Below are positions 2,716 through 44,600 of a stretch of 52,994 bases of DNA, piece after piece. The first letter of the stretch is position 1. The number at the start of each line of letters is the position of its first letter. The stretch is from a virus. A program made the position numbers and the translations under genes. The stretch covers positions 1 to 52,994 of the IMG/VR virus record IMGVR_UViG_3300025869_000018; one strand, given 5' to 3'. Under the pieces are notes generated by a model. That model had not been told where the DNA came from. It saw only the letters and a program-made list of their open reading frames with translations, and made no database searches.

Positions 2716-2865
2716 ATGTTAGATTTAGAATGGGTATTAAGCAGTTTAAGAGAAGCTAGAGACGAAGAGAATTGGGATTTAATAAAAGAAATAATAAGTT
2801 ATTTAGAAAGTCGTGATGACTTTAATGATGACGAAGGTTGGTCAGAACATTTAGAAAATATTTAA
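2716..2865 (+). CDS. Small acidic hypothetical protein (49 aa)
   Basis: A 49-codon frame with ribosome binding site GGAG 5-8 nt before the ATG. The product is acidic and helical (MLDLEWVLSSLREARDEENW...), with Trp residues that would pack a small helical hairpin. A short AT-rich motif resembling the late-promoter candidate lies at 2686-2694. It ends 4 nt before the tmRNA 5' end. No family recognised; small acidic phage proteins often bind host proteins, but this is only a possibility. Confidence 0.55.
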   Translation: MLDLEWVLSSLREARDEENWDLIKEIISYLESRDDFNDDEGWSEHLENI

Positions 2866-2869
2866 ATAT

Positions 2870-3285
2870 GGGGCTGTAATGGAACTCGACAGGTGTTATT
2901 TGAAAATAGAGTGCAGCAGAGATTGAGTATGTCTCGTAACAAAAGACTCACAAACCTAATTGACGAATCTAATTCGTTAGCCGGGTTGGACATTGATTGG
3001 CACTTAGCCAATGCTGAAATGGGATTTGACAACTTTGTCGCTCCTATTCAGAATGACCAACCAACTTACGCCTACACGGCTTAAGTTACTGAGTTGTCTA
3101 ACACTCGGTTATAAAATAAGTTAGACACCAACTCTTTTATATCAGAGTATAAAGAAATATCAGTTGGTAACTCTGAGTAAAGTTACAAGTAGTTTGTCAG
3201 TTACTTCTTATTGAAACTGAACTAAGCTGTAAATGACTCTTTGGAGAATACAGACTGGACGCGGGTTCGACTCCCGCCAGCTCCA
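2870..3285 (+). ncRNA. ssrA: Transfer-messenger RNA (tmRNA), one-piece
   Basis: tmRNA rescues stalled ribosomes and tags the unfinished protein. The 5' end GGGGCTG (2870-2876) pairs with CAGCTCC (3278-3284), including a G3-U wobble at the third pair and discriminator A3285, the alanine identity set. The T-arm is GCGGG/TTCGACT/CCCGC (3261-3277), and a D-arm-like GGAACTCGACAGG follows the 5' acceptor strand. The CCA end is not encoded (CAA follows). The tag frame most likely resumes at GCT 3040, preceded by GTC as in the E. coli arrangement, giving APIQNDQPTYAYTA and TAA at 3082-3084. The YAYTA end is like, but not the same as, the YALAA degradation tag. The hairpin-rich 3'-half fits the pseudoknot domain. 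Confidence 0.95.
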
Positions 3286-3303
3286 CAAATTTAAGGAAAT
3301 GGT

Positions 3304-4470: not shown

Positions 4471-5664
4471 ATGGGTTTTAATGATTTCTTCGATGAAGAA
4501 AAATTTGACTTCGATGCTGAACGCAAGAAGTTTATAGGTAATTTAGACTACCTCAAGTCTATGTCTGTACAAGAACAAACATTATATAAAAAGTGGATGG
4601 AGTTTAATGCTGATGTCTACTCTATGACGCAGAAAGCATCAAAGTTTTCTAAGATAGAAAAGTCTATCTGGCTACCTAAAGATATTAACAATAAAGAACA
4701 AACTATCAAAGAGATAGAAGCCTTAGAACCTTACGTTGAGATGACCGAACAAGGTAATACAGAACAGAATGAGATGTGGACATTGGTTCGTAGGTTGATT
4801 CACACTATGGAGTTTACTGCTAATCCTGGCAGAAACGTAAAGTTCTATGTAAAGGATAAAGTTAGTGGTAAGATATTGGGTATCATATGTTTAGGTTCTG
4901 ATGTAACATCATTAGGAGCTAGAGATACTTTTATCGGTTGGAGTAAAGACAATAAATTTAAAGATGGTAAACTTAAACACACATCTATCGGTACAACTAT
5001 ATGTTGCGCTCAACCATTAGGTTTTAATTTCTTAGGTGGTAAGTTAGTAGCCGCTATGGTTACATCATCGGTAGTTAGGGATGCTTGGAAGAAGTTGTAT
5101 GGACAAACCTTAGTTGGTTTATCTACCACATCTCTTTATGGTATTCATTCTATGTATAACTCTATACCACTTTGGAAAACATTAGGTTCTTCATCAGGTA
5201 AGATAGCTCTTAAACCAGATGACGAAACTTATGATGTATGGCATCAATGGTTAAAAGAAAATCAATCAGAAGAGTATCTGAAACAGACTACGCAAAAAGA
5301 AGGTGTAGCGGGTCCTCCAACAGGCGTAAAACAAAAGGTTATCAATATGATATTCAGAGCAGTTGGAGTTAAAGCATCAACCTATATGCATGGATTTAAG
5401 AGAGGTATCTTTTATGCTGATATGTATGAGAATGGTAAGGAGTTCCTGAGGGGAGAGATAGAAGAAAAAGATTTAAAGATGAAACAAAAGTATATTGATG
5501 ATAGTGATTACATTATGAATTGGTGGAAACCTAAAGCTATCAAAAGGTATACTAAGTTATTTGATGAAGGTAAACTTAAACCAGAGAAGTTATTCTACGG
5601 CGACATCGTGGGAAAAACTTGGGAAGAAACAAAAAAGTTGTACTTGAGTGAAGTTGGAAGGTAG
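4471..5664 (+). CDS. DUF4338-like protein (DruA-related family)
   Basis: 397 residues. The core (about 125-255) has the family pattern: a beta strand GKILGIICLGSD, ARDTFIGWS, then TTICCAQPLGFNFLGGKLVAAM, RDAWKKLYG, LVGLSTTSLYG, SMYNSIPLWKTLG and SSGK. This matches my recollection of DUF4338, the domain of the Druantia protein DruA, also present as free-standing genes in T4-like phages. The arrangement recalls acyltransferases of the GNAT/Mom kind, so a role in nucleic-acid modification is possible but unproven. N- and C-terminal regions are helical and charged. It is followed with a 1-nt overlap by a small gene and then by an endonuclease and a glycosyltransferase, a context that suits DNA modification or its control. 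Confidence 0.65.
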   Translation: MGFNDFFDEEKFDFDAERKKFIGNLDYLKSMSVQEQTLYKKWMEFNADVYSMTQKASKFSKIEKSIWLPKDINNKEQTIKEIEALEPYVEMTEQGNTEQNEMWTLVRRLIHTMEFTANPGRNVKFYVKDKVSGKILGIICLGSDVTSLGARDTFIGWSKDNKFKDGKLKHTSIGTTICCAQPLGFNFLGGKLVAAMVTSSVVRDAWKKLYGQTLVGLSTTSLYGIHSMYNSIPLWKTLGSSSGKIALKPDDETYDVWHQWLKENQSEEYLKQTTQKEGVAGPPTGVKQKVINMIFRAVGVKASTYMHGFKRGIFYADMYENGKEFLRGEIEEKDLKMKQKYIDDSDYIMNWWKPKAIKRYTKLFDEGKLKPEKLFYGDIVGKTWEETKKLYLSEVGR

Positions 5665-17221: not shown

Positions 17222-17536
17222 ATGCCATACACACAAGAGGAATTAAAAAACCTATCGTTTTATCAAAATTTAATTGATGAAGATGAGCAAAAATATTTAA
17301 ATAGAAAGGCTCTATTGACTTTAAAATCTAGCCTATCAGGTTCAGCAGACAATGGTGAGCTTGTGTATAGAGATAAAAGTGGAGCAATATTAGTTTTTGA
17401 AAATCCTTACACAAATACATTAAATGAAGATTCGAACACAAAAGTTGTGTATGATACCAAGTTAAAATTATTGAAAACAACAGCAGCTGATACTATCATA
17501 GACGAGGTATTAGATAGAGATTTTGAGGAGTTATAG
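17222..17536 (+). CDS. Small hypothetical protein in baseplate operon (104 aa)
   Basis: Starts 3 nt after the preceding stop; its stop overlaps the next start (TAGTG). The N-terminus is helical (YTQEELKNLSFYQNLIDEDEQKY), the rest is mixed with a short beta-hairpin (NGELVYRDKSGAILVFENPY) and an acidic C-terminus. No family recognised. Its tight coupling on both sides suggests a small connector or chaperone for the 2302-residue protein that follows. Confidence 0.65.
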   Translation: MPYTQEELKNLSFYQNLIDEDEQKYLNRKALLTLKSSLSGSADNGELVYRDKSGAILVFENPYTNTLNEDSNTKVVYDTKLKLLKTTAADTIIDEVLDRDFEEL

Positions 17537-20500
17537 TGGCTAGTCAACTAACAGAGAAAGATAAACAATTACTGGATGCAAATCTTCCAACGAAGGTGGG
17601 GTTAAAGCCTTATGAGGATGGCTTATGGGGTTCTCAAGGTAGTAAAGATTTTGTTCATTTACAATTATTTGACGAGAACAACAACCTTATTCAATTTGAA
17701 ACTGTGTCCACTTCTCAATTTGAAATAAATCCTAATAATAATAATATTGAATTTTATCCTGGAAATCACATCAGGAGTTTAGGTTACGAAAGTGGTATAT
17801 TTGTTGTAAGATATAACTTTTTGAGAAAATTAGCTGGTAGTGAAAATCCTGTATTGTTACACACGATAAGTAAAACCGACACTAAGGTTGGCGATGTATA
17901 TACTGATACGAGTAGGATTTACATAACTGATGATTCTATAGTATATTCAGGTACAGAGCAGGAGTATAAGGATAATCCATCTGGTGCAGAAGTATTAGCC
18001 ATAGAAGATTTAAAGTATAGAATAGATGTTATATCTCCAAATAGAACTGAGGTTAGATTAAAAGCTAAGAATATAAATGGTACTTACAAAGATGAGTTTA
18101 TTGATATACAGACTGCTATAATCGTAAAGCAAGTTACTAATAATATTAGTTTTTTAGGTGGTACACTATATGATTCTGTAAACATATCGTTGACTCCTGA
18201 AAATGGTGGCTTTGTATTTACACCCAAAATGATAGACGGAACAATAACAATACCAGATATATTTCAGATAAGTCAAATAGAAGTTCCTGTAAAGACTAAT
18301 ATAAATGCTGTTAAAAATGGAGAGGGCGAAAATATTTTTCTTCAAAACAATGGTGAGCCAGTAGATATAGCAAATTCAAGAGAGTGGGATACTACATTGC
18401 ACGATGACGCAATTAGAGTAGAAAATTGGAGTGATGGGTACAATAGTTTTAGTGGCGGTACTTTTGGGGGAACGGCTCATATAGGTTATCATGCAAAATG
18501 GGTTAAAGAAGAAGGTGTAGTCGGTGGTAATTGCATTAAATTTACAGACCAAAATGCTAGTTTTATAGATTTGCCTGAATGGCCAAACGATCAAAGATAT
18601 CGTTGGTTGGGAATTTCTCAAAAAATTTCTTCATTAAATGGAAAAGGTGTTAAAGATGGCGATATCGCCAGTATAAGCTTTGATATAAGAAGTACGGTGG
18701 CGAATAAAGGAGTTGAGATATCTTTACGATATGCTAATTCTCTTGTTCAAGAAAATATACCTCTAACTGCTCCTGCGGGATTTTATGACCCAAACCAACC
18801 TGGTCCGACTGAAGCTCAACCTACATCTCCACCAGAAGGATATTCTCAAAATAGTATGGCAAGTGCTCAAGCAATACAAACAAAGCCGGATGAAACGGAA
18901 TTACAAATGTTAACCACTCATTCGGATATGGTTTCATTTCAGTCTTATATAAAGCCAATGGCTCCAAATTTTGGATTAAGAGATCCTCAAATCGGCGATA
19001 ACAATGCAAGTACAACTTTACCAAATCAAACCGCTGCTTGGAAAATAGGAAATATATTTGATGATGGTGATGTGGTTTATCAATGGATTCCTGATTTAGA
19101 AGAGGATTTAAAAATAGGAACTAAAAGTTTAGGAGAAGAGTGGGAATGGGATGGTTACTCGTGGTTAGTGTCTCCGACATTAGCTAACTTTCCACCACCA
19201 CCTCCAAATACAGTAAATAATCTCAATGCTGTTAATCACCACCCTTATGTACCCAAAACACAAGGTGTATATAGTAGTAATGACGCTTATTATCCAAGAG
19301 AAAATTTTCCTGGTGAAAATAATGGTTGGCAAACCGCGACAGTAGTTGGAAATAACGCCACTGCTTTACTTTTTAAAGATGATTTAATATGGAAACAAAA
19401 ACACGATAACACAAATAATAATTTATCTAAATTTGATTTTTATACTTTTGATGAATATTTTCCTGCACACATTTATACGCCTCCTGAAGAAGTACTAGAA
19501 ACGTTTAATCCGTTTGAAGCTGCTATATTGGCAAATTCGATTGGTAGAGGAATTAGGGATGTAATTGTTGATGTAGACACCAATAAAAAACTATATGATG
19601 ATATTTTTGAAAAAGGATTTATTCAGAGTGTTACTCGTGGCCCAAATAACGATGGTACTGTTAAAAGTGGCTTATATTTAGTATTTTATAATAACGGAGA
19701 TATCGGTGGGGATGGTATACCAACAGAAGATTCTAACAAATACTTCTACGTTCACAGAAATTATGGAGTTTTAGATACCTACAATGATGGTGTGCTTGTA
19801 CAGTTTTTGAAAGATATTAATGGTGGTTTGAATCAAAAAGTTATAGACAATGAGTTAAAACTAGAGTGGTTTTTTAAAAAAGACGGTAGTAAGTTTAAAT
19901 ATTATATTCATGTTGGTGAAGAATATTATTCAATAAAAGATGCCGACCGTAAAATAAAAGAACAAGATATTACTGGTCCTGATGATGTTAGTGATGGGTT
20001 TCCAGGATCAGAAAATGCTGATGCTATACTAGGAAAAGTTGGTGGGTTTGGAAGATATCGTTACATTATAGGTGACAGGCAACTTAGGTCAAAAAGTAAT
20101 ACTGGCGATGGAACAGACAGAGACAAAGATATAAATGATAAATTTTATAGATGCGGTGAATATATCTCTAAAGATACACCAGTAACATATGGAGTCAGAA
20201 ATATAAGCGCTACAAACTATGGTGTTCAAAACGAAGATGGTGAGGTTATTAATTCTGAAGAGGAGCCTGTATACGACAATGATAATGGTATTTATAATTT
20301 TGAAAACAACCCAACACAAGAAGGAACATTAAGTCCTCTTGGAGTTTGGAAATGGAGTGGTAATTTAGATACAGGATGGGTTACAAATGCTTTAACTCCT
20401 CCAAGGTACAACTATACATCACCAGGAATTACAAAAGCTTGGGTTTCTCCTGAGATAGCCGGCGAATGGGTAAATGTAAGTGCTGAGATACCAATACCAT

Positions 20501-23500
20501 CTGATTGGGAATTAGGTCAAGATTGGTTTTTATATATCTATGGGGATGGTTCTCACACAAATGCTGAAAATGCTTCTGCTTATAGACAACAAGGAGTGGT
20601 TTGGGTAGATAACGTTTCTATAGATTTTATTCTTAAAGACCAATCTGAAACTATACCTGTCTATAAACCTTATAGTGCTCAGATAAAAACCATAAATAAT
20701 GATGGAACTTTAATTACTGTAGACAAAACATTAAGAGAGGCTGCTTTAGAAATAGGAGCCAACGATGATTTTGAAAATGGCGGAGAAGGAGATGGTAATC
20801 CTGATATTTACAACTTAACAGAAAACTTTAATTTTGAAAATTTTAAAGTCACTTATACAAATTTAAATCCAAAGGATTTAAGAACCTATCTTAAATTCGA
20901 AAACAATTTATTTCTAACAACCAATTTTAAATCAGACAGAGTTAGTGTAAGCCAATTTCCTTACTCTATAGTATATAAATTATATGAACCATTACCTGAT
21001 AGTTATGAAAAATTCGATGAATGTATTGTCGTTAAAGAAATGGCAAATCCATTAGAAGAAAAAGTTAGAATAATAGATTTTGTTAATGAAGAAGAGCCAT
21101 CATTAGTTCTTAGGTCTCCTGATTTGAATAATGTAGAAAGTCCAGTACAGAGAAGAGAAACTCAATTCAAAACAGAAGCTGATATATTGACTTCTTCTAC
21201 TACAGTATCGACAGCTCTTAGAAATAAATTTTTAAGTCAAAGTTTAGATAGTGTAGAGATAAATACAGACTATTCTAAATATGAAAATTTTGTAAATTTT
21301 GGTTCAGCTGAAGTTAGGATTAGAAACTTTAAAACAAAGTTAGAAAATATAGAACAATATAAAATAGATAGTGCTTCTTATTCTGGTGTAAGCGGTTCTT
21401 TAGGGGATATGAGTGTTTATCATCATAAAATAATAGATACAGAAAACAAACTTGATAGGTTTGAAAATTATATGTATTTTAAAAGTTCTTCTTACGTTAG
21501 TAGTTCTATTGGAATATTTCATGATAACGCGTGGCCCAAAGCTAGTGGAGAAGGAACTGTAAATAGTCCTTATGTTTTAGCACACACCACATCGTCTCAA
21601 GCTAATACTTGGTTTACAAACGCTGTAAACTCTGCATCACTTTATGATTTAGAAAATAATTCAAAACTAAGTGACATACTTCCTGAACATATAAAAATTG
21701 ATACAAAAAATGATACATATCTAAGATTTACGGATATGATAGGACAACACTTTGATGGTATATGGGAATACATAAATGCAGTTACAGATGTTACTGATAG
21801 AAGGGATAGGTTAGACGAAGGAATTTCAAAAGATTTATTGTACTCAGTTGCTAAGTCTTTAGGTTGGAACTTAAATGATGGAAAAGACTTATTGAGTTTA
21901 TCTAGATATGCTTTGGGTAAAGAGGTAACTGGTTCGGCTTATTCTGATTATTCAGCTACATCTGAACGTGATATATCAAGAGAGATATGGAGTCGTATAA
22001 TAAACAACATGCCTTTTTTCTTAAAGAATAAGGGTACTGTTAGGGCCTTGAAGGGCTTAATAAATGTTTATGGTATCCCATCAACCATTTTAAGGGTTAA
22101 GGAATATGGAGGACCTGCTTTATCAGATGATGCATCTCCACAATTTGAAATAACAAGAAAATTTACGAAAGCTTTAGATTTCAAAGGCGCTCAATCTGTG
22201 AAAGTAGCTTGGGCTGATGATTCAACATCAGGAAGAAAACCTGATACTGTAGAGTTTAGGTTTAGAGCCGCTACTGGTTCAAATCAAATACTTGTAGAAA
22301 AGCAAGATAATAACAATCAAGATTGGTTTATAAGATTAAAGGACAATGGTTCTGTAGACAACTATGGTCAAGTTTCATTTATGTTATCAGGCTCTGCTGT
22401 TGGTAAAGATTTAGGCGAACTTAAAGAAATTACTTCAACATCTTTGCCTGTATATGACGGTGATTTCTATTCGGTTATGGTTAATAGAACTTTAGGAACT
22501 AGCAATACTGCTGTATCCCAATCTTATCAGCTTAGTGTTGGTAAGTATGATGCAAGTAGAAGTAAGATACATTTATATAGTACATCTACTATGGATGTTA
22601 CACAAGCTGCTTCGTCTTCGTTTAGTAATGCTTGGACAGGCAGTGGTGACATTTATATTGGTGGTAGTGGTAGTCTAGCAGATGTGGGGGCTCAGTTTAG
22701 TGGTTCTATTATGGAATACAGACATTGGACAGAGATATTAAATACAGGTTCGTTTAAAAATCATATAGCTAATCCAAAAGCTTACGATGGTAATACTGTA
22801 TCGTCATCTTATAGTAACTTAGTTTTAAGGTATTCATTTGATGACAATAAAGATTTAAGTTCCGATATAGAGGGTATTAGGGATGTTAGTTCAAACCAAA
22901 CCCAAACATTGTCAGGTTCACATAGTGGTTTTACAGGAAACTTTTTTAGAAGTGTTGTTGATGAATTGAAAACTCATATACCAAGCATAGGTGCTTTAAG
23001 AAGAACTACAGACAAAATTAGGATTGAATCTAATAATTTAAAGCCAGGCTTTGCTCTAAGTTCAGAACACAGAGCTACTGATAGTGCTTACGATACCGCT
23101 CCAAGCGATTCGAATAAAGTTGGAATATGGCTCGCTCCTACTGATGTTATAAATAACGATATTATTAACTCCGTAGGTAATTTAAACTTTGAAGATTATT
23201 TGGGTGACCCTAGAGATAAAGAAGAATTGAGCTACAGAGGCTTAAATTATGTAGCTGATAATTACTGGAAAAAATACACAGCGCCAAACAATTTTTGGGA
23301 TTATATGAGAATGATTAAATATTATGACCAATCATTATATCCACAACTGAGAAAATTAATACCAGCTAGAGCAAAGCCAGATATTGGATTGTTAATAGAA
23401 CCTAATATCTTTGAAAGACCAAAAGTTGTCGTTGGTAAAACTCCTGATTTAGAAAATACGTATTTTAGCTCTTCTATAGACATAGGAAAAGAATTTGTGC

Positions 23501-24444
23501 GTGTAACAAGTTCATTTAACGCTGGGTTACCAATAACTAATTATGATGCATATACAGCTAACATTGATGTCTATAGTTATACAACCGGCTCATCTGTTAT
23601 CTCATCTAGTGCCGAAAATTTACTTTATGAGGCTAGTAGTTCAGAAGCTAGAGATATTTTTATAGAAAGAAGCATTTGGCAAAGACTGAATGATAATGAC
23701 GAATTTTATTCAAACGTAACAATGTCTTTTGGAGACACATTAAATGGAGTAAAGGGTGGTAAACAAGTATTCGTAAGCGGTTCTAGAGTGTATGGAATAA
23801 ATGAAAGAACTTCAAATTTTTATACTTCATCAGCCGATGCTTTAATATTCAATGAAAACTCTTCATCCTTTCACAATACGGATTTAGATAACTTTAGTCA
23901 CCTAACTCAAGGACTTAGAAATTCATTTTACATTGGAGTTAAGAATACTAAAAAAACTACATCAGATAACAATTCTCCTGTAGAGGTAATAATATCAGCA
24001 CCAACTAAACTTGTAACAACTGACCAAGGAGGATCTTCGTTGGATACAGGAGATGGTATAGTTCCAGATTTTAAAGAGGGTGATGATAAAGACGAAAAGG
24101 TACTAAGTAAAACATACGAAGAATTACAAATAAAAAATAAAGGTAAGAAGTTTGGACTCAAATCATTAAGCAAAACTTCAGAAAGCGATATGGATAGGAT
24201 AAAGAAAAAGAAAAAGAAAAAGATTAAGAAACTATCGGATGAAGGTAAATTAATTTTAGAGAAAACTCCCGATGATAAACAAATTAAGTTTGAAAATGTA
24301 TCAAAATCTATAGAAGAATTGATGGAAGTCGAAAGTAATGAAATACTAAAAAAACAGGTAGATAAACTGAAAGAAGATGGTATACTGAACGAAAAGCAGG
24401 TTGAAAAATTAATCGATGATGGTGTATTGAAAAATGAGAAATAA
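17536..24444 (+). CDS. Giant baseplate wedge-like protein with sugar-binding-type domains (2302 aa)
   Basis: Starts at GTG 17536 overlapping the previous stop. Layout: a beta-rich N-terminus (1-250); jelly-roll segments, one split, whose second half near 955-1040 shows GEWVNVSAEIPIPSDW..LYIYGDG..VVWVDNVSIDF, typical of CBM4/9-like modules; a coiled segment at about 1190-1260; a conserved helical core at about 1368-1530 (RFTDMIGQHFDGIWEYINAV, REIWSRIINNMPFFLKNKGT, LKGLINVYGIP), the pattern of wedge/tail proteins that hold fibres; a LamG-like domain at about 1535-1735 (LDFKGAQSVKVAW...DTVEFRF); and a Lys-rich coiled C-terminus with KKKKKKIKK near 2222. It probably fills the gp7/gp10 role, enlarged with sugar-binding modules; T4 gp7 is 1032 residues. 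Confidence 0.75.
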   Translation: MASQLTEKDKQLLDANLPTKVGLKPYEDGLWGSQGSKDFVHLQLFDENNNLIQFETVSTSQFEINPNNNNIEFYPGNHIRSLGYESGIFVVRYNFLRKLAGSENPVLLHTISKTDTKVGDVYTDTSRIYITDDSIVYSGTEQEYKDNPSGAEVLAIEDLKYRIDVISPNRTEVRLKAKNINGTYKDEFIDIQTAIIVKQVTNNISFLGGTLYDSVNISLTPENGGFVFTPKMIDGTITIPDIFQISQIEVPVKTNINAVKNGEGENIFLQNNGEPVDIANSREWDTTLHDDAIRVENWSDGYNSFSGGTFGGTAHIGYHAKWVKEEGVVGGNCIKFTDQNASFIDLPEWPNDQRYRWLGISQKISSLNGKGVKDGDIASISFDIRSTVANKGVEISLRYANSLVQENIPLTAPAGFYDPNQPGPTEAQPTSPPEGYSQNSMASAQAIQTKPDETELQMLTTHSDMVSFQSYIKPMAPNFGLRDPQIGDNNASTTLPNQTAAWKIGNIFDDGDVVYQWIPDLEEDLKIGTKSLGEEWEWDGYSWLVSPTLANFPPPPPNTVNNLNAVNHHPYVPKTQGVYSSNDAYYPRENFPGENNGWQTATVVGNNATALLFKDDLIWKQKHDNTNNNLSKFDFYTFDEYFPAHIYTPPEEVLETFNPFEAAILANSIGRGIRDVIVDVDTNKKLYDDIFEKGFIQSVTRGPNNDGTVKSGLYLVFYNNGDIGGDGIPTEDSNKYFYVHRNYGVLDTYNDGVLVQFLKDINGGLNQKVIDNELKLEWFFKKDGSKFKYYIHVGEEYYSIKDADRKIKEQDITGPDDVSDGFPGSENADAILGKVGGFGRYRYIIGDRQLRSKSNTGDGTDRDKDINDKFYRCGEYISKDTPVTYGVRNISATNYGVQNEDGEVINSEEEPVYDNDNGIYNFENNPTQEGTLSPLGVWKWSGNLDTGWVTNALTPPRYNYTSPGITKAWVSPEIAGEWVNVSAEIPIPSDWELGQDWFLYIYGDGSHTNAENASAYRQQGVVWVDNVSIDFILKDQSETIPVYKPYSAQIKTINNDGTLITVDKTLREAALEIGANDDFENGGEGDGNPDIYNLTENFNFENFKVTYTNLNPKDLRTYLKFENNLFLTTNFKSDRVSVSQFPYSIVYKLYEPLPDSYEKFDECIVVKEMANPLEEKVRIIDFVNEEEPSLVLRSPDLNNVESPVQRRETQFKTEADILTSSTTVSTALRNKFLSQSLDSVEINTDYSKYENFVNFGSAEVRIRNFKTKLENIEQYKIDSASYSGVSGSLGDMSVYHHKIIDTENKLDRFENYMYFKSSSYVSSSIGIFHDNAWPKASGEGTVNSPYVLAHTTSSQANTWFTNAVNSASLYDLENNSKLSDILPEHIKIDTKNDTYLRFTDMIGQHFDGIWEYINAVTDVTDRRDRLDEGISKDLLYSVAKSLGWNLNDGKDLLSLSRYALGKEVTGSAYSDYSATSERDISREIWSRIINNMPFFLKNKGTVRALKGLINVYGIPSTILRVKEYGGPALSDDASPQFEITRKFTKALDFKGAQSVKVAWADDSTSGRKPDTVEFRFRAATGSNQILVEKQDNNNQDWFIRLKDNGSVDNYGQVSFMLSGSAVGKDLGELKEITSTSLPVYDGDFYSVMVNRTLGTSNTAVSQSYQLSVGKYDASRSKIHLYSTSTMDVTQAASSSFSNAWTGSGDIYIGGSGSLADVGAQFSGSIMEYRHWTEILNTGSFKNHIANPKAYDGNTVSSSYSNLVLRYSFDDNKDLSSDIEGIRDVSSNQTQTLSGSHSGFTGNFFRSVVDELKTHIPSIGALRRTTDKIRIESNNLKPGFALSSEHRATDSAYDTAPSDSNKVGIWLAPTDVINNDIINSVGNLNFEDYLGDPRDKEELSYRGLNYVADNYWKKYTAPNNFWDYMRMIKYYDQSLYPQLRKLIPARAKPDIGLLIEPNIFERPKVVVGKTPDLENTYFSSSIDIGKEFVRVTSSFNAGLPITNYDAYTANIDVYSYTTGSSVISSSAENLLYEASSSEARDIFIERSIWQRLNDNDEFYSNVTMSFGDTLNGVKGGKQVFVSGSRVYGINERTSNFYTSSADALIFNENSSSFHNTDLDNFSHLTQGLRNSFYIGVKNTKKTTSDNNSPVEVIISAPTKLVTTDQGGSSLDTGDGIVPDFKEGDDKDEKVLSKTYEELQIKNKGKKFGLKSLSKTSESDMDRIKKKKKKKIKKLSDEGKLILEKTPDDKQIKFENVSKSIEELMEVESNEILKKQVDKLKEDGILNEKQVEKLIDDGVLKNEK

Positions 24445-32679: not shown

Positions 32680-35600
32680 ATGGCCATCGTAAAAAGATTC
32701 AACAGATTACTTGGACTTGAAAAAATAGATGTATTGGTAGATGAGAAGGATAAATCCAGACACATCGTAATTACCAATATACCTGAAAGCCTGCCTCAAG
32801 GTAAAAGCTCTTTTCTTATAGAGGCTTCTCCTTATATGAGAAAGGGAATAGAACTTCAAATAGACTTTATCGACTCAAAAGGTAATAGTATATATGTTGA
32901 ACCAGTTCAAAATTATTTAGAAGGTTCTTCCAGAACTGTATCGGTTGAGGTATATGATACAGTAGCACCAGGTGTTGCTACAATGATAATAGTAGGTGAA
33001 TTAGATAGATTACCATTAGATTCTGGAAATTATAGTGAAGTAGAAGAAATACCAAAAGAGTTTCAAGGAGTTTATAATGTAAGACTTACCAAAGAATTTA
33101 TTATAAATACTGCTGAAATAAATGTTCAACCTATAAAATTTTATACATCACCAAAACTCACAGCTGTTGAAAAACGTTTTGGTACAATGATTAGAGAAGT
33201 AGTATCAGGCGAAACCGTATCTTCTGCATTCAAAGTTAGAGGACAATCAAATATACAACAACAGTATGAGATATTTAATAATCCATCTCAAAATGATGAT
33301 ACAGGAGAAGGGGCTGGTGTAACAGAAACACAAGAAAATCAAACACCACCACCACCTAACGGAGATATTCCAGGTGATGAAGCTGAAAAAGAAAAATTAA
33401 AACAACATGCAAAGAAAAAAAGTATCAGAGGAAATAGTAGATTTAAAAGGTCTAGAAGAATAAGAAGGAGAAATTCACCAGAAGATTTTCCGTATTTTTT
33501 TACTATAGGAGATGACGAACATAGATTTACTACAAAAGAAGTAGGCGCAGAAATAAGATTTTCTGCCATAGATACTTCCCTATACAGTCAAGAAGACTTA
33601 GATAACAATGGTTTAAAAGTTCCTGTCTCTTTCAATGTGGTTACGGATCCGGATGATGAAAACTTTCCAAACCATTACACAGCGTCAATTGCTGAGTTAG
33701 ATGTTACGGGTACAACTGCTTATGTAAATACACCATTTACAAAACAAGATGTTGAAGGTAACTATAGAATTTTAAATATGGCAGCTACTGCTAAAACTCA
33801 TTTTACTCGTGAACCATCTGCTTCTTTTAGTCTAACAAACATAGTCTCTTACGCGGATATTACATTAAGTCACCTTAGAACTTTCTCAGGCGAAGTTTTT
33901 AAAGCAAAGGTTTACGTAAGAAGTGAAGGTTCTTTTGACGATTACAAACTATTAGCTGAAGTACCTGTAGAATCTCCTGATAAAATGGTAAATAACAATT
34001 CGGTTGGTGTAGGAGAAAGAACAGGTTATTTCGTATCGGAAGAAGATAAAAATACATATTGGGATTTATTTGGAAGTACGAATGGATTGACAGCAGCTAC
34101 CGCTACATCAACTGCTTCATATCAAGAATCAACTACAATGTTAGATTCTGTAATGATATCAGGAAGTACATCAGTATTTACAGACCAAATAAGATTTCAA
34201 TTAAAAGATGAATACAAATTTGAGTTGAGAAAAAGTATAGATTATACTTTATCTTTTAATGCTATAGGACAAAAAGATATTGATGGTAGGGCTTTAATGC
34301 TGGTGTATGTTTCTGGCTCTTCTATGAAACAATCAACTGATTTACATAATGATAGCGTGACTCAAACTGATATAGAAGAATCCTCTGCTTATGGTAAAAG
34401 GATGGGAGTCTTAGAAGTAGAGTCTTCCGATGATATTAAAAAAGATTTTAAACTAGTTACTCATAATTTTAATTCAATTTTAACTGGCGATGCTGTAGTT
34501 CAGTTTAGGGTTATATCTGGACAATGGAACCTATCAGACATATCAGTAGTTCCATCAACAGACACAGGCTTCTCACCTTCATTTATAAATTTTCAACAAG
34601 AATTATCTCCTGAACTAACACATAAAAGACCTGAAACATTAGAGTTTCTGACGGAGTTTTATGATATAAATAATAATTTGGCAGATGAAATTGCTGTAAC
34701 TACAGGTTCTGTATTTACTGGCGCTAATATGGTTATTACAGGAGACGACAATAACATTCCTGGTAGTGTGTTTATAGGTGGAGAAACAACTGCTAGTGGT
34801 ATGCAGTTTGGTGGTGTTGACTCAACAATACCTGAAACAGGAGACGATGGAGCTACTGGTTCTGGTTTTATGAGGTCAGTTGGTTATTTGGGATTCACAT
34901 CTGCTTCAAACTCATCGTTAGGTGGTAAGCCTGGCTTTATGATTTATAGTGGTTCTGTATTACCTGGCAGTGGTGAAAATTATGCTGGTGTTGGTTTAGA
35001 ATTAGTTGGAGCTAGTGGTTCATTAAAATTTAGAACTAATCCAAGTTTATTTGATGTACAAGCAGATTCATTTTTTGTAGGAAAAGCTACAACACAATTT
35101 ATAAGTGGTTCGAGTGGAAATGTAGAAGTAAGTTCATCAAACTTTCATTTAACACCTGAAGGTAATGTTACAATGAGTGGTACAATTACTGCGGAGTCTG
35201 GTTTCATAGGTGGTTTTGCAATTGGTTCTAATACATTATCTACTACTGGTGCTTTATTAGGAGATTCAACTCAAACTCACTTTATAAGTTCAAGTGCATT
35301 TAAAGTAGATCATAGTGGAAATGTTACTGCTAGTAATATAGATTTGGGTGGTAAGATAACTGCTACGAGCGGTGAGATAGGTGGGTGGACTATACACGAA
35401 GATATGTTAGCTGCTGGTACAGGAAACAGTTCAGTTTCAATGAGTGGTGATGATCAACTTTTTAGATTTGGTAGTGGTTCTGTTTTCAACATTGGTGATA
35501 TTGATGGTATACTTTTTGGTCAAGATACTGATGGTAAGTATAAATTTGGTGTAGGTCGTGGTGAATCTTATATATTCTTTGATGGAGATTCAGTAAACAT

Positions 35601-38600
35601 TAAGTCGGAAGATATAAATGTAACCGCTTCTGTTTTTTCTGTAGATGTTGATGTATTCAAACTTTCTGCTAACAATTTATTTATAAGTTCAAGTCAAGGC
35701 GGATTTATATCTGCTGGTAATCCAAGACCTACTGGTATTACAGGAACAAACAAAGGGGTATTTATAAGTGGTAGAGATCCAGGTGATACCAAACCAAAAT
35801 TTTTAGCCGGTAATGCAGCAGGTGGGCGTTTGTCTTTTGATGGTGATAATATTTTTATGTCGTCTTCTGCTTTCTTTTTGGGTTCACCTACTCAATTTAT
35901 TAGCGGCTCTTTAGGAAATATAGAAATAAGTTCCTCCAACTTTCATTTAGATAGCGCAGGTAATGTTGTTATGTCGGGTAATGTTTCTGCTACAACTGGA
36001 ACAATAGGTGGACTTACAATTGGTGCTACAAAATTAAGTTCTGGAACAGCATATGAAATATCATCATCTACAAATGTTAATGATCCTGTATCTTTTATAT
36101 CTTCAAGTAATTTTAAAGTTTCTGCTGGTGGACAAGTAACAGCATCAGGATTTTCATTAGAAGGTGGTGATGTTGGTGGATTAGTTGTTGCTGAGGGAAC
36201 GGTTTCTGTAGGTGAGATACTTAAACTAAAAGATAGTGGACAGATTACAGGTTCAAAAGTTTTATTTACAGGTGGAACTATTGGTGGGTTTACAATAGAT
36301 GCTGACGAAATAAAGTCTACAAATGTTCTTATAGATTCAGCTAACGAAAAGATTACTTTAGGTTCTGCTAATGCTATAAAGTTACAAGGTGGAGCAACTG
36401 ATAATTTTCTTACAATGGGAAGCAAAACAAGCTTTTCACACGAGGGAACAGGAACTGCTGGTATTCTTATTGGTATGGATGGTACAAATCCACAAGCAGA
36501 ATTTGTTAAAAATGCCACTAACTACTTTATATTTGATGATGGTATTGATATACAAACAGATACATTGGTTGCTAGTGGTAGTTCAATTACATTGGAAACT
36601 CCTAAATTCTTTTTAGGAAAAGCTAGTACAACATTTGTGAGTGGTTCGAATGGAAATATTGAAATAAGTTCATCTGCATTCCATTTAACTCCTGAAGGTA
36701 ATATTACCGGTAGTAATATTTTACTTGGAGATAAAGGTGAAAGTCAGTTTTTACAGTTTGCTAATGGCGCTTTAACTGTTAGAGGAGATTTAGCAGTTGA
36801 TTCATTATTCTTACCTGCAACAATAGCTGGTGCTACATCCACAGTTGCTAATGCTTCTTCATCTTTGGATTCAAGAGGATTTGCTAAATTCGTATCAGCT
36901 TCAATCGGTGGGTTCAATGTAACATCTACAGAAATAAAAGATTCAGGTAACAATTTAATATTAAAATCAAACGGACAGATTACAGCATCAGCAGTATCTA
37001 TGTCAGGTAATATAAATGCTAACGCAGGTGATATTGGTGGATTTGTTATAGATTCAACACAGATAAATTCTACCAACGATAGCTTAATACTAAAAGCTAG
37101 TGGTCAAATTACTGCTTCTGCAGTCTCTATGTCAGGAACAATTGTAGCTGATAGTGGTAATATCGGTGGTTTCATAATTGATTCTGATGAAATAAAATCT
37201 GGTACAACATTAATATTAGATTCTAATAGTAATAATGGTGAGATAAAATTAGGTTCAGCAGCTCTTAATTCAGGTGATGGTATTTATATGAATGGTAATG
37301 GTGTATTTAGAGTTGGTGATTTTGACGGCAATAGATTACACTTTGATAGTAATAATTTACATCTAACTGCTTCCAAAGTAAATATTAGTGGTTCTTCTGT
37401 AAAGCTTGAAACACCTAGATTTTATTTAGGAGAATCTGCTCAATATATAAGCGGTAGTAATGGTAATGTAGAAATAAGTTCATCAAATTTTCATTTGGAT
37501 AATAGTGGTAATGTCACAATGCAAGGAAATGTTACTGCTACTACAGGTCAGATTGGTGGATTTGCAATAACATCAAATTCTATATCGAGCTCAAACGATA
37601 ATTTAATACTAAAATCAAGTGGTCAGATAACAGGCTCAAATGTTTTGTTTAATGGTGGTACAATAGGTGGGTTTACGATTGACGCTGATGAAATTAAGAG
37701 TGGAACTAATATAGCCTTAGACTCTACTAACAAAAAATTAACAATCAATAATGCTACATTTGGAAATGCTGGAATACAATTAGAGTACAATAGTGGAACA
37801 CCAAGATTTTATGTGGGTGATGGTTCGAATGAGTTTGTAAAGTACGATGGTAGTAGTGTAGATATTAGAACTAAAAAATTAAATGCTAGTGGTAGTAATA
37901 TCACATTAGAAACTCCAAAGTTTTTCTTAGGAAAGAAAGGTTCACAATTTGTAAGTGGTTCAAACGGTAGCATAGAAATTAGTTCTTCGTTCTTTCATTT
38001 GACTCCACTGGGTAATGTAACTGCTTCTAATGCTTTATTCGATGGAACTATAGATGTGACTGGAACAGGAACTATAGCTGGCTGGGCAATAGGTTCTAAT
38101 AGGTTTAACGATAACGCTGACAGTATTAGATTAGATAGCAATGTTGGTTCTGTATCAATAAAAAATCATTCATTTGGTCAATCAGGTATTCAGTTAGAAC
38201 ACAACAGCGGAACTACGAGATTTTACGCTGGTAATGGCTCTGATAAGCATATAAAATTTGACGGTAGTGATGTTGATATTAAATCTGCTAAATTTGAGTT
38301 AGACGCTAACAATTTAGAACTATCTTCTACACATGCTTCTATGAGTTTAGGTGAAGGTAAGATTAAATTAGTTGGAGCTTCTACTTCCACTATAACAGTA
38401 GGTGCTGCAAACTCGATTAAGTTATCAGATGATGGTACGGATAGATTTTTAGTTGTAGGTAGTAAAACTTCATTTACACATTTTGACCAATCTACCGCTG
38501 GTTTGATATTGGGAACTGATAACGGAACTACTAAGTTCGAACTAGCAGCAGATGCGAATAATTACATATCATTCGATGGTTCTGAATTTGATATAAAAAC

Positions 38601-41600
38601 TGCAGAATTTACTTTAGATACTACAAATTTAGATATAAACTCTTCTACAAAAAGAATAGAGGTTTCTGATGGTAGTAATGTAAGAGTTAGAATAGGTGAG
38701 GTTGATTCTACTTCAGCTAATCATTTTGGTATAACAGTTTACGATGGAAGTGGAACAGGCGCTTCTGATGAAATAGTTCATCTAAGTGATGCTAAAAATC
38801 AGATAGCTAGTTGGTCTTTAAGTCCTAATCAAATATCAAGTCAAAATTTAGTCATTCATTCTTCCGGTAGATTAGAGACTGCCAATTTTGTAAGTGGTCT
38901 TAGGGGATGGAGAATATCATCAGCTGATAATGGTTCAGCTGAATTTGAAAATGTAAGTATTCGTGGTACATTAAAGACTACTGTATTTGAAAAAGAAACT
39001 GTAAATGCTGTAGGTGGTCAGTTGTATATAGCTAACTCTACTGTTACAACAGGTTCTACTGCTTTAGTTGCTACTGCTACAACAATGAGTGTTGTAAATG
39101 TTAGTGGATTTGCAGCAAATGAAATATTATCTGCTAAAAAGATAAGTGCTACTGGATTTGGAACAGAGTATATGTTAGTACAAAGTTCATCTAGAGACAT
39201 ACCATCAAGCGATACAAATTTTGCTGGAAAACTTTATTTAGTTAGAGGATACAGAAGCGGTAGTTTGGGTGCTTCGGGTTCTCTTGGAGATAGATCAAAT
39301 ATATCACAATCATACGAACCAGGTCAAGTTATCATATCAACTGGTAAAATAGGAACTGGTTATATTAGATTAAATGCTAACCCAAATGACAAAACCACAC
39401 CTTACATGGATATTGTTGAAAGAACTGGTAGTGGGGTATATGATGTAGAATTAAAAGCTCGTTTAGGAGATTTGAGTGGATTGAGTAGTGGGTTACTTTA
39501 TGGTAATGCTACACCAGGTTTTGGATTATTTACAGAAAATGTATTTTTAAGTGGTGCTATAACTGCACAGACAGGTTCAATAGAAGGAATACTACATATT
39601 AGAACTGATGCATCAAATCAAATTAAATTAGGAACTAATGTAAATGGCTCACAAGACGGTATTCACATTAATGATAATAATTTTTGGTACACCAATGGGC
39701 ATTTTAAAACAGGATTCGATAGTGATAATTTAATACACCAATCAGGTTCGTCTTTAACTATAAAATCAGAAACATTTGCACTAAAAGGTGGAACTACTTT
39801 AGTATTAGATAGCTCTACACCTAAATTGGTAATGGGTAGTAGTGCTGCTTCGATAACAGATACGGATAACACTGGTATCTATATGGATGGTACTGGCAAA
39901 TTTAGGGTTGGTGAAGATCAGGGAAGTGGTGATAATTTTATTTACTTCAACGGAACTACTATACAGATGAAATCAACAGTATTTGATTTGGTTGCTGGTT
40001 CTACTCTTGTTATCAATAGTTCAACACCTAAAATTGTATTGGGTGCTAGTGCTACTGGACAAAGTTTGACTAGTGGAACTGGTATCTTTATGAATGGTAG
40101 TGGACATTTTAGAGCTGGTAAAGCAGGTCATGGTAGAATTGAATGGGATGGAACTAATGTATATGTAAGTTCATCTGCATTCTTCTTAGGAAGTGATTCA
40201 CAATTTTTAAGCGGTTCTTTAGGCAATATAGAAATAAGTTCATCTGCCTTTCATCTAAGTGGTGGTAATGCTATTTTATCAGGCAAGGTAACATCTGCTG
40301 AGGGTAATATCGGTGGATTTGATATTGGAGCATCATCGATAGCTAGTCAAGCTGGTGGGTTAACATTAAATGCTGATGGTGGTATAACTGGTTCTAAGTT
40401 TTTATTAACAGGTGGTGTAATAACTGATGATGTAACAATTCAAGGTGACTTATCTGCTAATAGTATTTCTACACCATCCGATGGTTCGGGCATAAAAGCT
40501 ACGATAACTTCGGAAGGATTTGCAAAATTCATATCAGCTTCTATTGGTGGATTTGATGTTGATGGTAATCAGATAAATTCAACAAATGATGCATTAATTT
40601 TAAAATCAAACGGCCAGATTACAGCATCAGCTGCTCAGATATCAGGAAATATAACCATCACTGGCGGTGATTTAGCTGGAGTAAGCGCAGATACAATTAG
40701 TGGTTCAGCCGCAGAAGTGTCAGCTTCTTTAGCTAGTAGACAAACTCCTTATGAAACTCAAGTTTTACTTACTTCAGCTGGAATGTCTCTAAACAAAGCA
40801 GATGGAACGAGTGTAGCAGATTACGGAGATACAATTAGAATTGGTATAGATGCTAATAATGAGTCTAGAGTTGAGATTGATAACGATTCAATGGATTTTA
40901 TAACTGATAGTTCAGGAACAGATACAACACGTGCTACCTTTGGAGCAACATCGGTAATTGGTACTTCAACCGACAAAGTGACTATCAGCGATAGTGGAAT
41001 CACAATTAGAGAAAATAATGTTGATAGTATTTTATTGGCTAGTGGTGCTGTAACATTGAATGGGGCTAGTACGGATGACCAAGTAGTTATAAACGCAAGT
41101 GGTGTAACCATAAAAGAAGGTGGTACTGTAAGAACAACATTGGCTGGTAACAAACTTACGCTTGGTAAAGCTGATGATAATAGAATAGAGATTACAGATA
41201 GTGCTTTTAGTCTATACGAAGGTTCTGTTGAAAAGGTATCTATTGGCTCATCCGATGTAAAAGTTTTATATGACTCCAACAACTACTCTCAGATGGATGC
41301 TGATAGTTTTGATGTTGTCTTAGGTGGACAAACCTCTGCTTCTTTTGGAGCAACCACAACAATCGGTCCGACAGGTGGAAGTCACGTATCCATAGATTCC
41401 CAACAGATATCGGTAAAGAGAGGAACAACAACTTTCTTATCAGCATCAGCTGCTGGTTTAGATATGAGTGGTTCTATAAAAGCTAGTGGTGGTACAATCG
41501 GTGGATTTGATATCAGCACAACTAAAATTCAAAGTGCTACAGGCGGTGATACTGTAAATTATACTGTAACTGCAAATGGTTCTAGTAATTACCTTATAGA

Positions 41601-44600
41601 TGGAGTTGCTCAACCAGCACTTACTCTTATAGTTGGCAATACATACGTGTTCGATGTTTCAGATGGAACTATGGGTAGTCACCCATTTAGATTTTCACAA
41701 AATTCAAACGGACCTGAGTATAGTACGGGAGTTACAGCTACGAGTAGTACAGTAACAATCGTAGTTACTGCTAGTACACCATCAACTTTATATTACTATT
41801 GTACGAATCATAGTGGTATGGGTAACTCTATATCGATTACAACCGCCACACCATCTCTTATATTGAATGGTTCTAACGGACAGATAACTGCTTCTGCAGT
41901 ATCTATGTCTGGAATGGTAAATGCTAGTTCAGGACAAATTGGTAACTTTGCTATAAGTAGTAACAACTTGCAAGGTGGAACTACATTTCAATTAAATCCA
42001 ACTAACAATAGTGGTGAGATTAGATTGGGTGCTAGTTTAGGACCGAACTCAGCTGATAGTACAACGAGAGGTATATACTTAGCCGGTAGTGGAGAGTTTG
42101 GTTTAATTGAAAGTGAAACTAATAGAATATTTTCAGATGGTAGTGGTCTTGATATACGTTCAGATACATTTACTTTAGACGCTACTACGGTTTATCTTGA
42201 TAGCGCAACACCATCGTTACGATTCGCTGCTGATGCGAGTGCTCATTCTTATAATGCTGCTGAAGGTATATTTATCGGAAAGCATAGCAGTCAATATAAG
42301 ATGTCAATAAAGGGTGGGGCTAGTGATAATTCTTTAGTTTGGGATGGTGATAGCTTAACTATAGCTGGTAGTATAACAATTACAGGTGGTGATTTGGCCG
42401 GCGTAACCGCCGCAACTATTAGTGGTTCTTTACCTGATGGAACACTTAGTGGTTCTGCTCAGATAGCTGACCAGATAAGTGGTTCAGCAAATGCTTTAAG
42501 TGCTTCTGCTGCTAGTTCGATAGCTCAAACATTAGTTGACTCTGGTTCAATTGCTGCTGCTGTTGAATTAACAAATGAGGGAATGAATATACTTAACAGT
42601 AGTAATCAGGCTATAGCTCAATATAGTGATGATGCTATCATCGGTAGAACTGCTACAGGATTTAGTAATGTATTCGTAGACTCCTCTGAAGGAGAAGTTC
42701 AGATAAGAAAAGGTTCGGTAGTTTCCGCATCATTTGGTGCAACAACCACAATCGGTCCTACTGGCGGAAGTCATATTCTAATAAATTCTGAACAAATCGC
42801 AGTAAAAAGAGGAACAACAACTTTCTTATCAGCATCAGCTGCTGGTCTAGATATGAGTGGTAAGGTTACTGCTACGAGTGGTGAAATAGGTGGGTTTACT
42901 ATAGACGCTGATGAGATAAAAGCTGGTACAACATTGATATTAGATTCTGATACTAATAATGGAGAAATAAAATTAGGTTCAGCTGCTCTTGATTCTGGTG
43001 ATGGAATCTATATGAATGGAAGCGGCGTATTCAGAGTTGGTGATTTTGACGGCAATAGATTGCATTTTGATGGAACTAATTTACATCTAACTGCTTCCAA
43101 AGTAAATATTAGTGGTTCTTCTGTAAAGCTTGAAACACCTAGATTTTATTTAGGAGAAACATCACAGTTTATAAGTGGTTCAAATGGAAACATTGAAATA
43201 AGTTCATCTAAGTTTCACCTAAAGAACAATGGTGATGTAGTTGCAAATAACATTACAGCGTCAAACATCTCAATGTCTGGTGTTGTAAATTCTAGTGCAG
43301 GAGCTATTGGTGGTTTTGTAATTGATTCAGCGCAGATTAATTCTACCAATAACAATCTAATACTAAAGGCTAGTGGACAGATAACCGCTTCAGCAGTATC
43401 TATGTCAGGTAACATTAACGCTAGTGGTGGAGACATAGGTGGGTTCGTTATCGGCTCAACACAGATAAACTCAACCAATGATAATTTAATACTAAAAGCT
43501 AGTGGTCAGATTACTGCTTCTGCCATATCAATGTCAGGTGCTGTAGTTGCTACAACTGGTGAAATTGGTGGATTCAGAATCGGTACTGATTTAAATTCTA
43601 CATCAGGCACATTGAAACTTAAAGGTGCTAGTGGTCAAATCACAGCCTCTGATGCTTTGATAAATGGTAACATAACTGCTACAACTATTAATGCTACAGG
43701 TTCAGGAGTTATAGGTGGTTTTACAATAGATTCTACAGAGATAAGTGCTAGTGGATTATTGTTAAAATCAAGTGGACAGATTACTGCTTCAGCTGCTGAC
43801 CTTAGTGGAAAGATTACTGCTACGAGTGGTGAAATCGGTGGCAACACAATAGCTAGTGGTTCTATATTTAGTGGAACTGGTACTTTTGGAAATGTTAACA
43901 CTCCTTTCTTCTTAGATAGTGGTGGTAGGTTTAGTTTAAAGAATAAACTTTCTTTTAATGGTTCTAGTTTAGCTGTTCAAGGTGACATAACTGCGATTAC
44001 AGGTCAAATAGGTGGATGGGGTATATCTGGTGATGTTTTAAGCAGCACACAATCTGATAGTGTTGAGCTAGATGGTGAAAACGAAAGAATAACAATAAAT
44101 AGTAACACATTTGGAAATACAGGAATACAACTTGATAATAATGGTGGTAATCCACGAGCATTCATTGGTAAAACCAATGGTAGTTTCTTAAAGTTTGACT
44201 CATCTACAAATATACTACAGATAAGTTCATCTAATTTCTTATTAGGTGGCGGTGGACAATTCGTAAGTGGTTCAAATGGTAATATAGAAATAAGTTCATC
44301 TAACTTTCATTTAGATAATAGTGGTAATACTACTATGGCTGGTAAAATCACATCTACCGAAGGTACAATCGGTGGTTGGAGTATGACTACCTCTTCTTTC
44401 TTTAGTGGTGATACCGGTGATAGAATGGAGTTTCAGTCAAATAATAATAGAATAGTATTGTATGATGCTGCTAAAAGTTCATTGGCTGGACAAGAAATTA
44501 TACAGATAGGACAATTATCTAGTGCTGGTGAAATTGTATTTGGTAGTAGTGTATACGGAATAAAGATATCAGGTTCTAATTCTTCTATGGGTAGTAATGA

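Follow-up and report, generated by a model that had tools for sequence, protein, structure and literature searches.

tmRNA tags are usually regarded as short degrons, and a tmRNA gene carried by a phage raises the question of which tag it encodes and whether that tag is a short degron too. The window, i.e. the whole stretch of 52,994 nucleotides analysed here, is a contig of a marine virus with myovirus-like genes (baseplate wedge, primase and SbcC-like nuclease). No gp23 was found in the window, while the gp23 of a 165 kb relative (G014) is T4-like, and the earlier description of the tmRNA as phage-encoded was borne out by these phage genes. The window also encodes a peptide deformylase with a C-terminal SEC-C motif (833-1423) and contains two giant open reading frames, at 17536-24444 (2302 aa, no PHROG match) and 32680-46185 (4501 aa).

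A covariance-model search, the check proposed in the initial annotation, matched RF00023 on the plus strand at 2870-3288 from model position 1 to 374, end to end, with pseudoknots PK1 and PK2 aligned (86.3 bits, the gathering score being 47 bits, E 3.6e-32). The element is thus a genuine, complete one-piece tmRNA, and the limits 2870-3285 given initially are exact for the mature gene. ARAGORN called no tmRNA in the window, and the covariance model was therefore decisive. The features of the locus are as follows.

2716-2865, plus strand: acidic protein of 49 aa with two helices, whose frame ends 4 nt ahead of the tmRNA (AlphaFold2 pLDDT 81, helices)
2870-3288, plus strand: complete one-piece tmRNA gene (ssrA), RF00023 match; mature 3' end at 3285
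2870-2876, plus strand: 5' strand of the acceptor stem, GGGGCUG, in which G3 (2872) pairs with U 3282
2919-2950, plus strand: pseudoknot PK1 from the RF00023 alignment, limits approximate
2953-2961, plus strand: resume signal AACCUAAUU, with the A at -4 at 2958 (A at -4 in 90/90 relatives)
2962-3084, plus strand: tag frame of 40 codons, from GAC 2962-2964 to the stop TAA 3082-3084 (RF00023 alignment, relatives, codon analysis)
2962-2978, plus strand: small hairpin at the tag start, resume codon included, with 2962-2966 pairing with 2974-2978 (RNAalifold, 64 sequences)
2974-3009, plus strand: tag core SLAGLDIDWHLA, family form [SN]LxGLx[IV]DW[HQ][LMF]A in an alignment of 70 tags (A1)
3058-3081, plus strand: host-like tag end QPTYAYTA (alignment and host-phylum tags)
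3088-3127, plus strand: pseudoknot PK2 from the alignment, outer limit approximate, stem 3088-3094/3103-3109 plus UGUCUAAC/GUUAGACA
3261-3277, plus strand: T-arm from the RF00023 alignment, covarying among aligned relatives
3278-3285, plus strand: 3' strand of the acceptor stem, CAGCUCC, and discriminator A (3285), from the sequence, the RF00023 alignment and relatives

All features of alanine identity that had been pointed out before are present, namely G3-U70, the discriminator A and a canonical T-arm; all 64 aligned relatives retain the G-U pair, whereas further pairs of the acceptor stem and the T-arm vary. The gene ends in ACAA and lacks an encoded CCA. The second stem of PK2, which lies 3' of the TAA at 3082, covaries (e.g. 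UUCAAC/GUUGAA in relative L199), and PK3 and PK4 were not resolved in the alignment. The tmRNA is predicted to fold more stably than its shuffled versions, with a minimum free energy z of -4.5. Promoter-like sites near the gene occur at a frequency close to chance, and no convincing terminator was found directly after it. The RNA is linear with respect to the model, which excludes the two-piece (permuted) type of Alphaproteobacteria and pelagiphages, whose 3' piece comes ahead of the 5' piece. This part of the initial argument against an alphaproteobacterial origin stands, but such descent was never the obvious one, since the isolates closest in gp23 have Bacteroidota and a cyanobacterium as hosts. 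Furthermore, the gene lies complete inside the contig and is conserved in relatives, and is no mere 3' fragment left at an attachment site. Another contig (L006, 2891-2922) has the 3' end of a tmRNA alone, with T-arm and acceptor, as an attachment-site fragment would.

The tag had initially been read from GCT 3040 as the 14-residue APIQNDQPTYAYTA. The RF00023 alignment sets CCUAAUU/GAC of the window against the consensus AAUAAUU/GCA (slash at the resume point), and read from GAC 2962 to TAA 3082 the tag is DESNSLAGLDIDWHLANAEMGFDNFVAPIQNDQPTYAYTA, 40 aa, with a predicted product beginning Ala-DESNSLAGLDIDWHLA..., of which APIQNDQPTYAYTA is the C-terminal third (the last 14 residues). The resume codon stands 50-53 nt from the 5'-domain pattern in 90 of 90 relatives, with long and short tags alike. 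All 90 also have A at -4, compared with a background of 27% over tag codons; our finder, written in Python, demanded T at -1, so that T at -1 in 90/90 holds by construction, and left A at -4 free. The equivalent base in E. coli, A86, is nearly invariant and the A86U change leaves no measurable activity (PMC2481249). Because the covariance-model alignment, the fixed distance to the 5' domain and the all but obligatory A at -4 point alike to GAC 2962, the 40-aa tag is very probably the translated one. A start at GCT 3040 has in its favour that GUC/GCU resembles GUC/GCA of E. coli and that ARAGORN likewise calls internal starts in relatives; however, this codon has T at -4, as in the inactive E. 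coli mutant, and lies 78 nt off the conserved position. Nor is the site itself conserved: relative L005 has ACT at the matching position and the column of the first A of APIQNDQPTYAYTA is mixed (E 27, A 11, L 10, V 9, gap 7 and others among the relatives). We regard this start as extremely improbable; a different resume codon was the outcome that the initial annotation had itself named as contrary to its reading.

The long tag is not peculiar to the window. A first set of relatives was fetched with the neighbouring gene, the open reading frame at 4471-5664, without reference to the tag, and 14 of the 16 tmRNAs above cut-off in these contigs had the same type of frame, the other 2, from distant phages, having another. 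The phage protein of 4471-5664 itself matches DruA, a component of the Druantia defence system (PF14236, 1.4e-27), and pelagiphages and cyanophages encode homologues. When 2.9 million viral contigs were searched with a DNA pattern for GLxIDWHLA, 116 stretches were hit, nearly all of them long-tag tmRNAs; this pattern fixes the core by design and conservation was therefore judged on a tag-blind set. The tag-blind scan with the 5' domain yielded 84 long tags vs 6 short ones (9-11 aa, e.g. GTQANLTYAYA and GNTANYAYA). Altogether, 77 distinct tag peptides of 34-43 aa were found in ocean viral contigs and share one plan: a front of the form [GS][DE]xSLxGLx[IV]DW[HQ][LMF]A, a middle part that differs among tags in both sequence and length, and the end QPTYAYA(A). 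In alignment A1, L6, L9, D12 and W13 are invariant and S5, G8, I11, H14, L15 and A16 are conserved in >=90% of the 70 tags, with conservative core replacements in relatives (I/V, H/Q, L/M/F). The window tag falls within this group by its length, by SLxGLx[IV]DW[HQ][LMF]A and by its YAYA-type end, of which YAYTA is a rare variant. This ending had been singled out as the oddity of the tag and is not very odd: relatives end in YAYAA, YAYA or YANA and one sampled Bacteroidota genome encodes AENNYAYAA, and the truly unusual feature, overlooked at the time, is the conserved N-terminal segment of 25-30 residues. Two relatives (L150 and L197) have lost the usual stop codon, and their tags read on into PK2 and reach 49 aa. 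A tag of this group occurs in no isolate phage of the collection searched, and searches of Pfam and PHROG with the tag gave no family match. ARAGORN, run on 69 full-length relatives, missed 38 and gave 31 an internal start, with none of the 69 correct, a failure that may account for the group having gone unnoticed.

Selection acts on the tag frame at the protein level. Of 79 distinct tag sequences, all 79 are open in frame 0, 1 in frame +1 and none in frame +2. Codon changes between nearest neighbours were synonymous in 190 cases and not in 156, i.e. 55% vs 23% expected (since the neighbours are related, the p-value can be taken only as indicative). A codon model gave an omega of 0.266, with lnL -3214.6 when free vs -3316.8 at omega = 1 (2ΔlnL 204); 2ΔlnL was ~81 for the core and 119 for the tail, and the first four tag codons alone are not decisive. 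Constraint on the RNA also acts and part of the conservation of the tag frame is not at the protein level, since RNAalifold on 64 sequences predicts the hairpin at the tag start with some GC/AU and GU/AU changes, the GGG and TTG codons in the tag are nearly invariant at the nucleotide level, and the minimum free energy fold pairs GGUUGG with CCAACC. It could accordingly be argued that the segment acts as RNA, either keeping the resume site and the degron apart or forming a structure between them, and that its translation is incidental. Some compensating changes in the consensus hairpin, the near-invariant TCG, GGG and TTG codons and the strong folding of the tag region as a single sequence agree with such a role. 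Yet constraint on RNA alone would favour no particular frame, and the relatives show the low omega and the likelihood gains in both core and tail, synonymous changes at L6, I11, H14, L15 and A16, indels that keep the frame, and invariant W and D; we judge a role of the segment as RNA alone to be unlikely.

As to the host, the gp23 of G014 is nearest to those of an uncultured 484 kb phage (53%) and Microcystis phage Mel-JY01 (51%), followed by Flavobacterium phages immuto (49%) and then Rhodothermus phage RM378. These relatives weakly suggest a host among Bacteroidota or their neighbours. A search of RM378 and of the immuto phage examined with RF00023 gave no match. In 30 Bacteroidota and 30 TMED198-class genomes the tags have 9-10 aa, bar one doubtful ARAGORN call, and end in YALAA, YAMAA, YAYAA or YMAAA. 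Because of this short length and of the tag AENNYAYAA among them, the phage tag resembles those of likely host phyla at its end but not at its front. A motif scan of bacterial genomes gave 7 hits, 6 of them unrelated frames and 1 a 7.5 kb contig in the MAG TMED198, where a phage-type tmRNA stands alongside the short-tag tmRNA of the MAG itself (ADYGYAAAA). We treated this contig as phage DNA and rejected it as proof of the host. A search for SmpB in 24 records, G014 among them, found none, but the contigs are partial and SmpB may lie outside them; gp23 was found in 3 of these records and ClpP in one. Of 85 loci, 55 have an open reading frame similar to the 49-aa protein that adjoins the tmRNA or overlaps it. 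In the window the gene of this protein is a tmRNA neighbour and a possible co-transcript, its membership in the system being not proven. In 17 of those 55 loci the TGA stop of the upstream frame sits at nt 6-8 of the tmRNA; cleavage by RNase P would therefore leave a non-stop mRNA, itself possibly tagged.

Compared with bacterial one-piece tmRNA (ssrA, RF00023), the window tmRNA shares the full-length model match, G3-U70, the T-arm, PK1 and PK2, the A at -4, a single stop codon and a hydrophobic tag end. It differs by its 40-aa tag, against a modal 10 aa in the 2025 tmRNA database paper (PMC11915505), by the conserved internal core, which the sampled host tags lack, and by its score of 86 bits vs about 150-200 for the best host tmRNA matches. 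The tmRNAs of Streptomyces phages, the mycobacteriophage Bxz1 group, Melnitz and Mosig are likewise phage-encoded. Those of the Streptomyces phages are one-piece like that of the window, but their tags have only 11-13 aa (DNSNVAFALAA, ANSNVASAYALAA), whereas the Melnitz tmRNA is two-piece and SAR11-like (PMC9004378). We found a second long-tag group among large phages (L368-L391), with RF00023 matches, tags of ~24 aa and the core STMTFEDAMAFVGA. It resembles the first group in having a conserved core ahead of a degron-like end, but the core is unrelated, the ends are mostly AVAA or ALAA and the phage lineage is different. A GOLLD RNA lies ~1 kb from the tmRNA in one member of this second group (L386, 314-728). 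Moreover, the 484 kb phage LR756508.1 carries a full-length tmRNA (L297) with a 36-aa frame of its own, for which a pattern search gave no relatives, and a 112-nt tmRNA with the tRNA-like domain only (414804-414915, i.e. L300 1501-1612; 58 bits), reminiscent of the DS6A inhibitor.

The architecture of the RNA, the reading frame and length of the tag and the protein-level selection over 77 distinct tags are established here, and the working model that we hold to be reasonably probable is a functional phage tmRNA that adds a bipartite tag, composed of a phage module and a host-like degron. The phage tmRNA would work with host SmpB, alanyl-tRNA synthetase, EF-Tu and ribosomes, take over nascent chains from ribosomes that have stalled where a broken mRNA ends, and resume at GAC 2962; the initial suggestion that it could rescue ribosomes during infection appears right. 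The first part of the tag would be the conserved phage-specific segment with the core SLxGLxIDWHLA and the second the host-like terminal degron (..QPTYAYTA in the window, usually YAYA or YAYAA), which would hand the products to host ClpXP-type AAA+ proteases. The extra segment would then not be inert but serve as a second recognition element, its partner being a protease, an adaptor or some other molecule. AlphaFold2 predicted the tag structure with low confidence (pLDDT 62) and thus suggests no binding mode. A bacterial precedent is Mesoplasma florum, whose tag is longer than that of E. coli, ends in NYAFA and is read by Lon, a case in which a change of tag can accompany a switch of protease; it differs in being bacterial, in its sequence and in its tie to the loss of ClpXP (PMC9382460).

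Six related tmRNAs do without the extra segment, which counts against the bipartite model. The absence of a confident predicted fold, the host-like ending and the variable middle of the tag would also suit a degron with a longer unstructured lead that aids AAA+ engagement of folded proteins, its core having no specific partner, but the near-invariant S5, L6, G8, L9, I11, D12, W13, H14 and A16 would then be needless, and we find this rather unlikely. Quite improbable, in our view, is a decoy that titrates SmpB or tags unproductively and so blunts host trans-translation: the tRNA-like-domain-only tmRNA of phage DS6A inhibits tmRNA (PMC4131195 and PMC11915505) and phage SmpB was not found in the 24 records, yet the mRNA-like domain, the stop codon and the tag are kept under selection, none of which a decoy of the DS6A type needs. 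The same database paper gives ssrA as a common integration site (PMC11915505), as a host ssrA acquired at an attachment site and carried along unselected would require. The gene is however complete, retained in many related phages and under purifying selection, and its tag is absent from the host genomes scanned except for the one phage-like contig in a MAG, which leaves an unselected passenger hardly credible.

The 2025 database holds 97,179 tmRNA sequences, 79 of them from phages, and the available part of its description remarks on 2-aa tags and does not mention a long phage tag class (PMC11915505). In a 2005 survey mRNA-like regions reach 126 nt, this extreme coming from a plastid (PMC1168896); length alone is therefore no record and the conserved core is the new part. 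We found no earlier description of the long-tag phage class in the open-access literature, an absence that is no proof. Catalogues of phage tags are likely wrong for this group, in view of the ARAGORN results. With at least 77 distinct phage tags of ~4x the modal length and with a conserved core, the tag itself appears to be selected for something more, the reason why phages carry tmRNA becomes a testable question, and the core can serve as bait in a search for partners. We tentatively propose, while leaning slightly against it, that large marine phages made the tag a targeting module and that separate lineages evolved different cores (SLxGLxIDWHLA and STMTFEDAMAFVGA). On this proposal, the conserved segment would, during infection, direct the products of stalled ribosomes to a specific partner, be it an adaptor, a particular protease or a regulator of phage or host.
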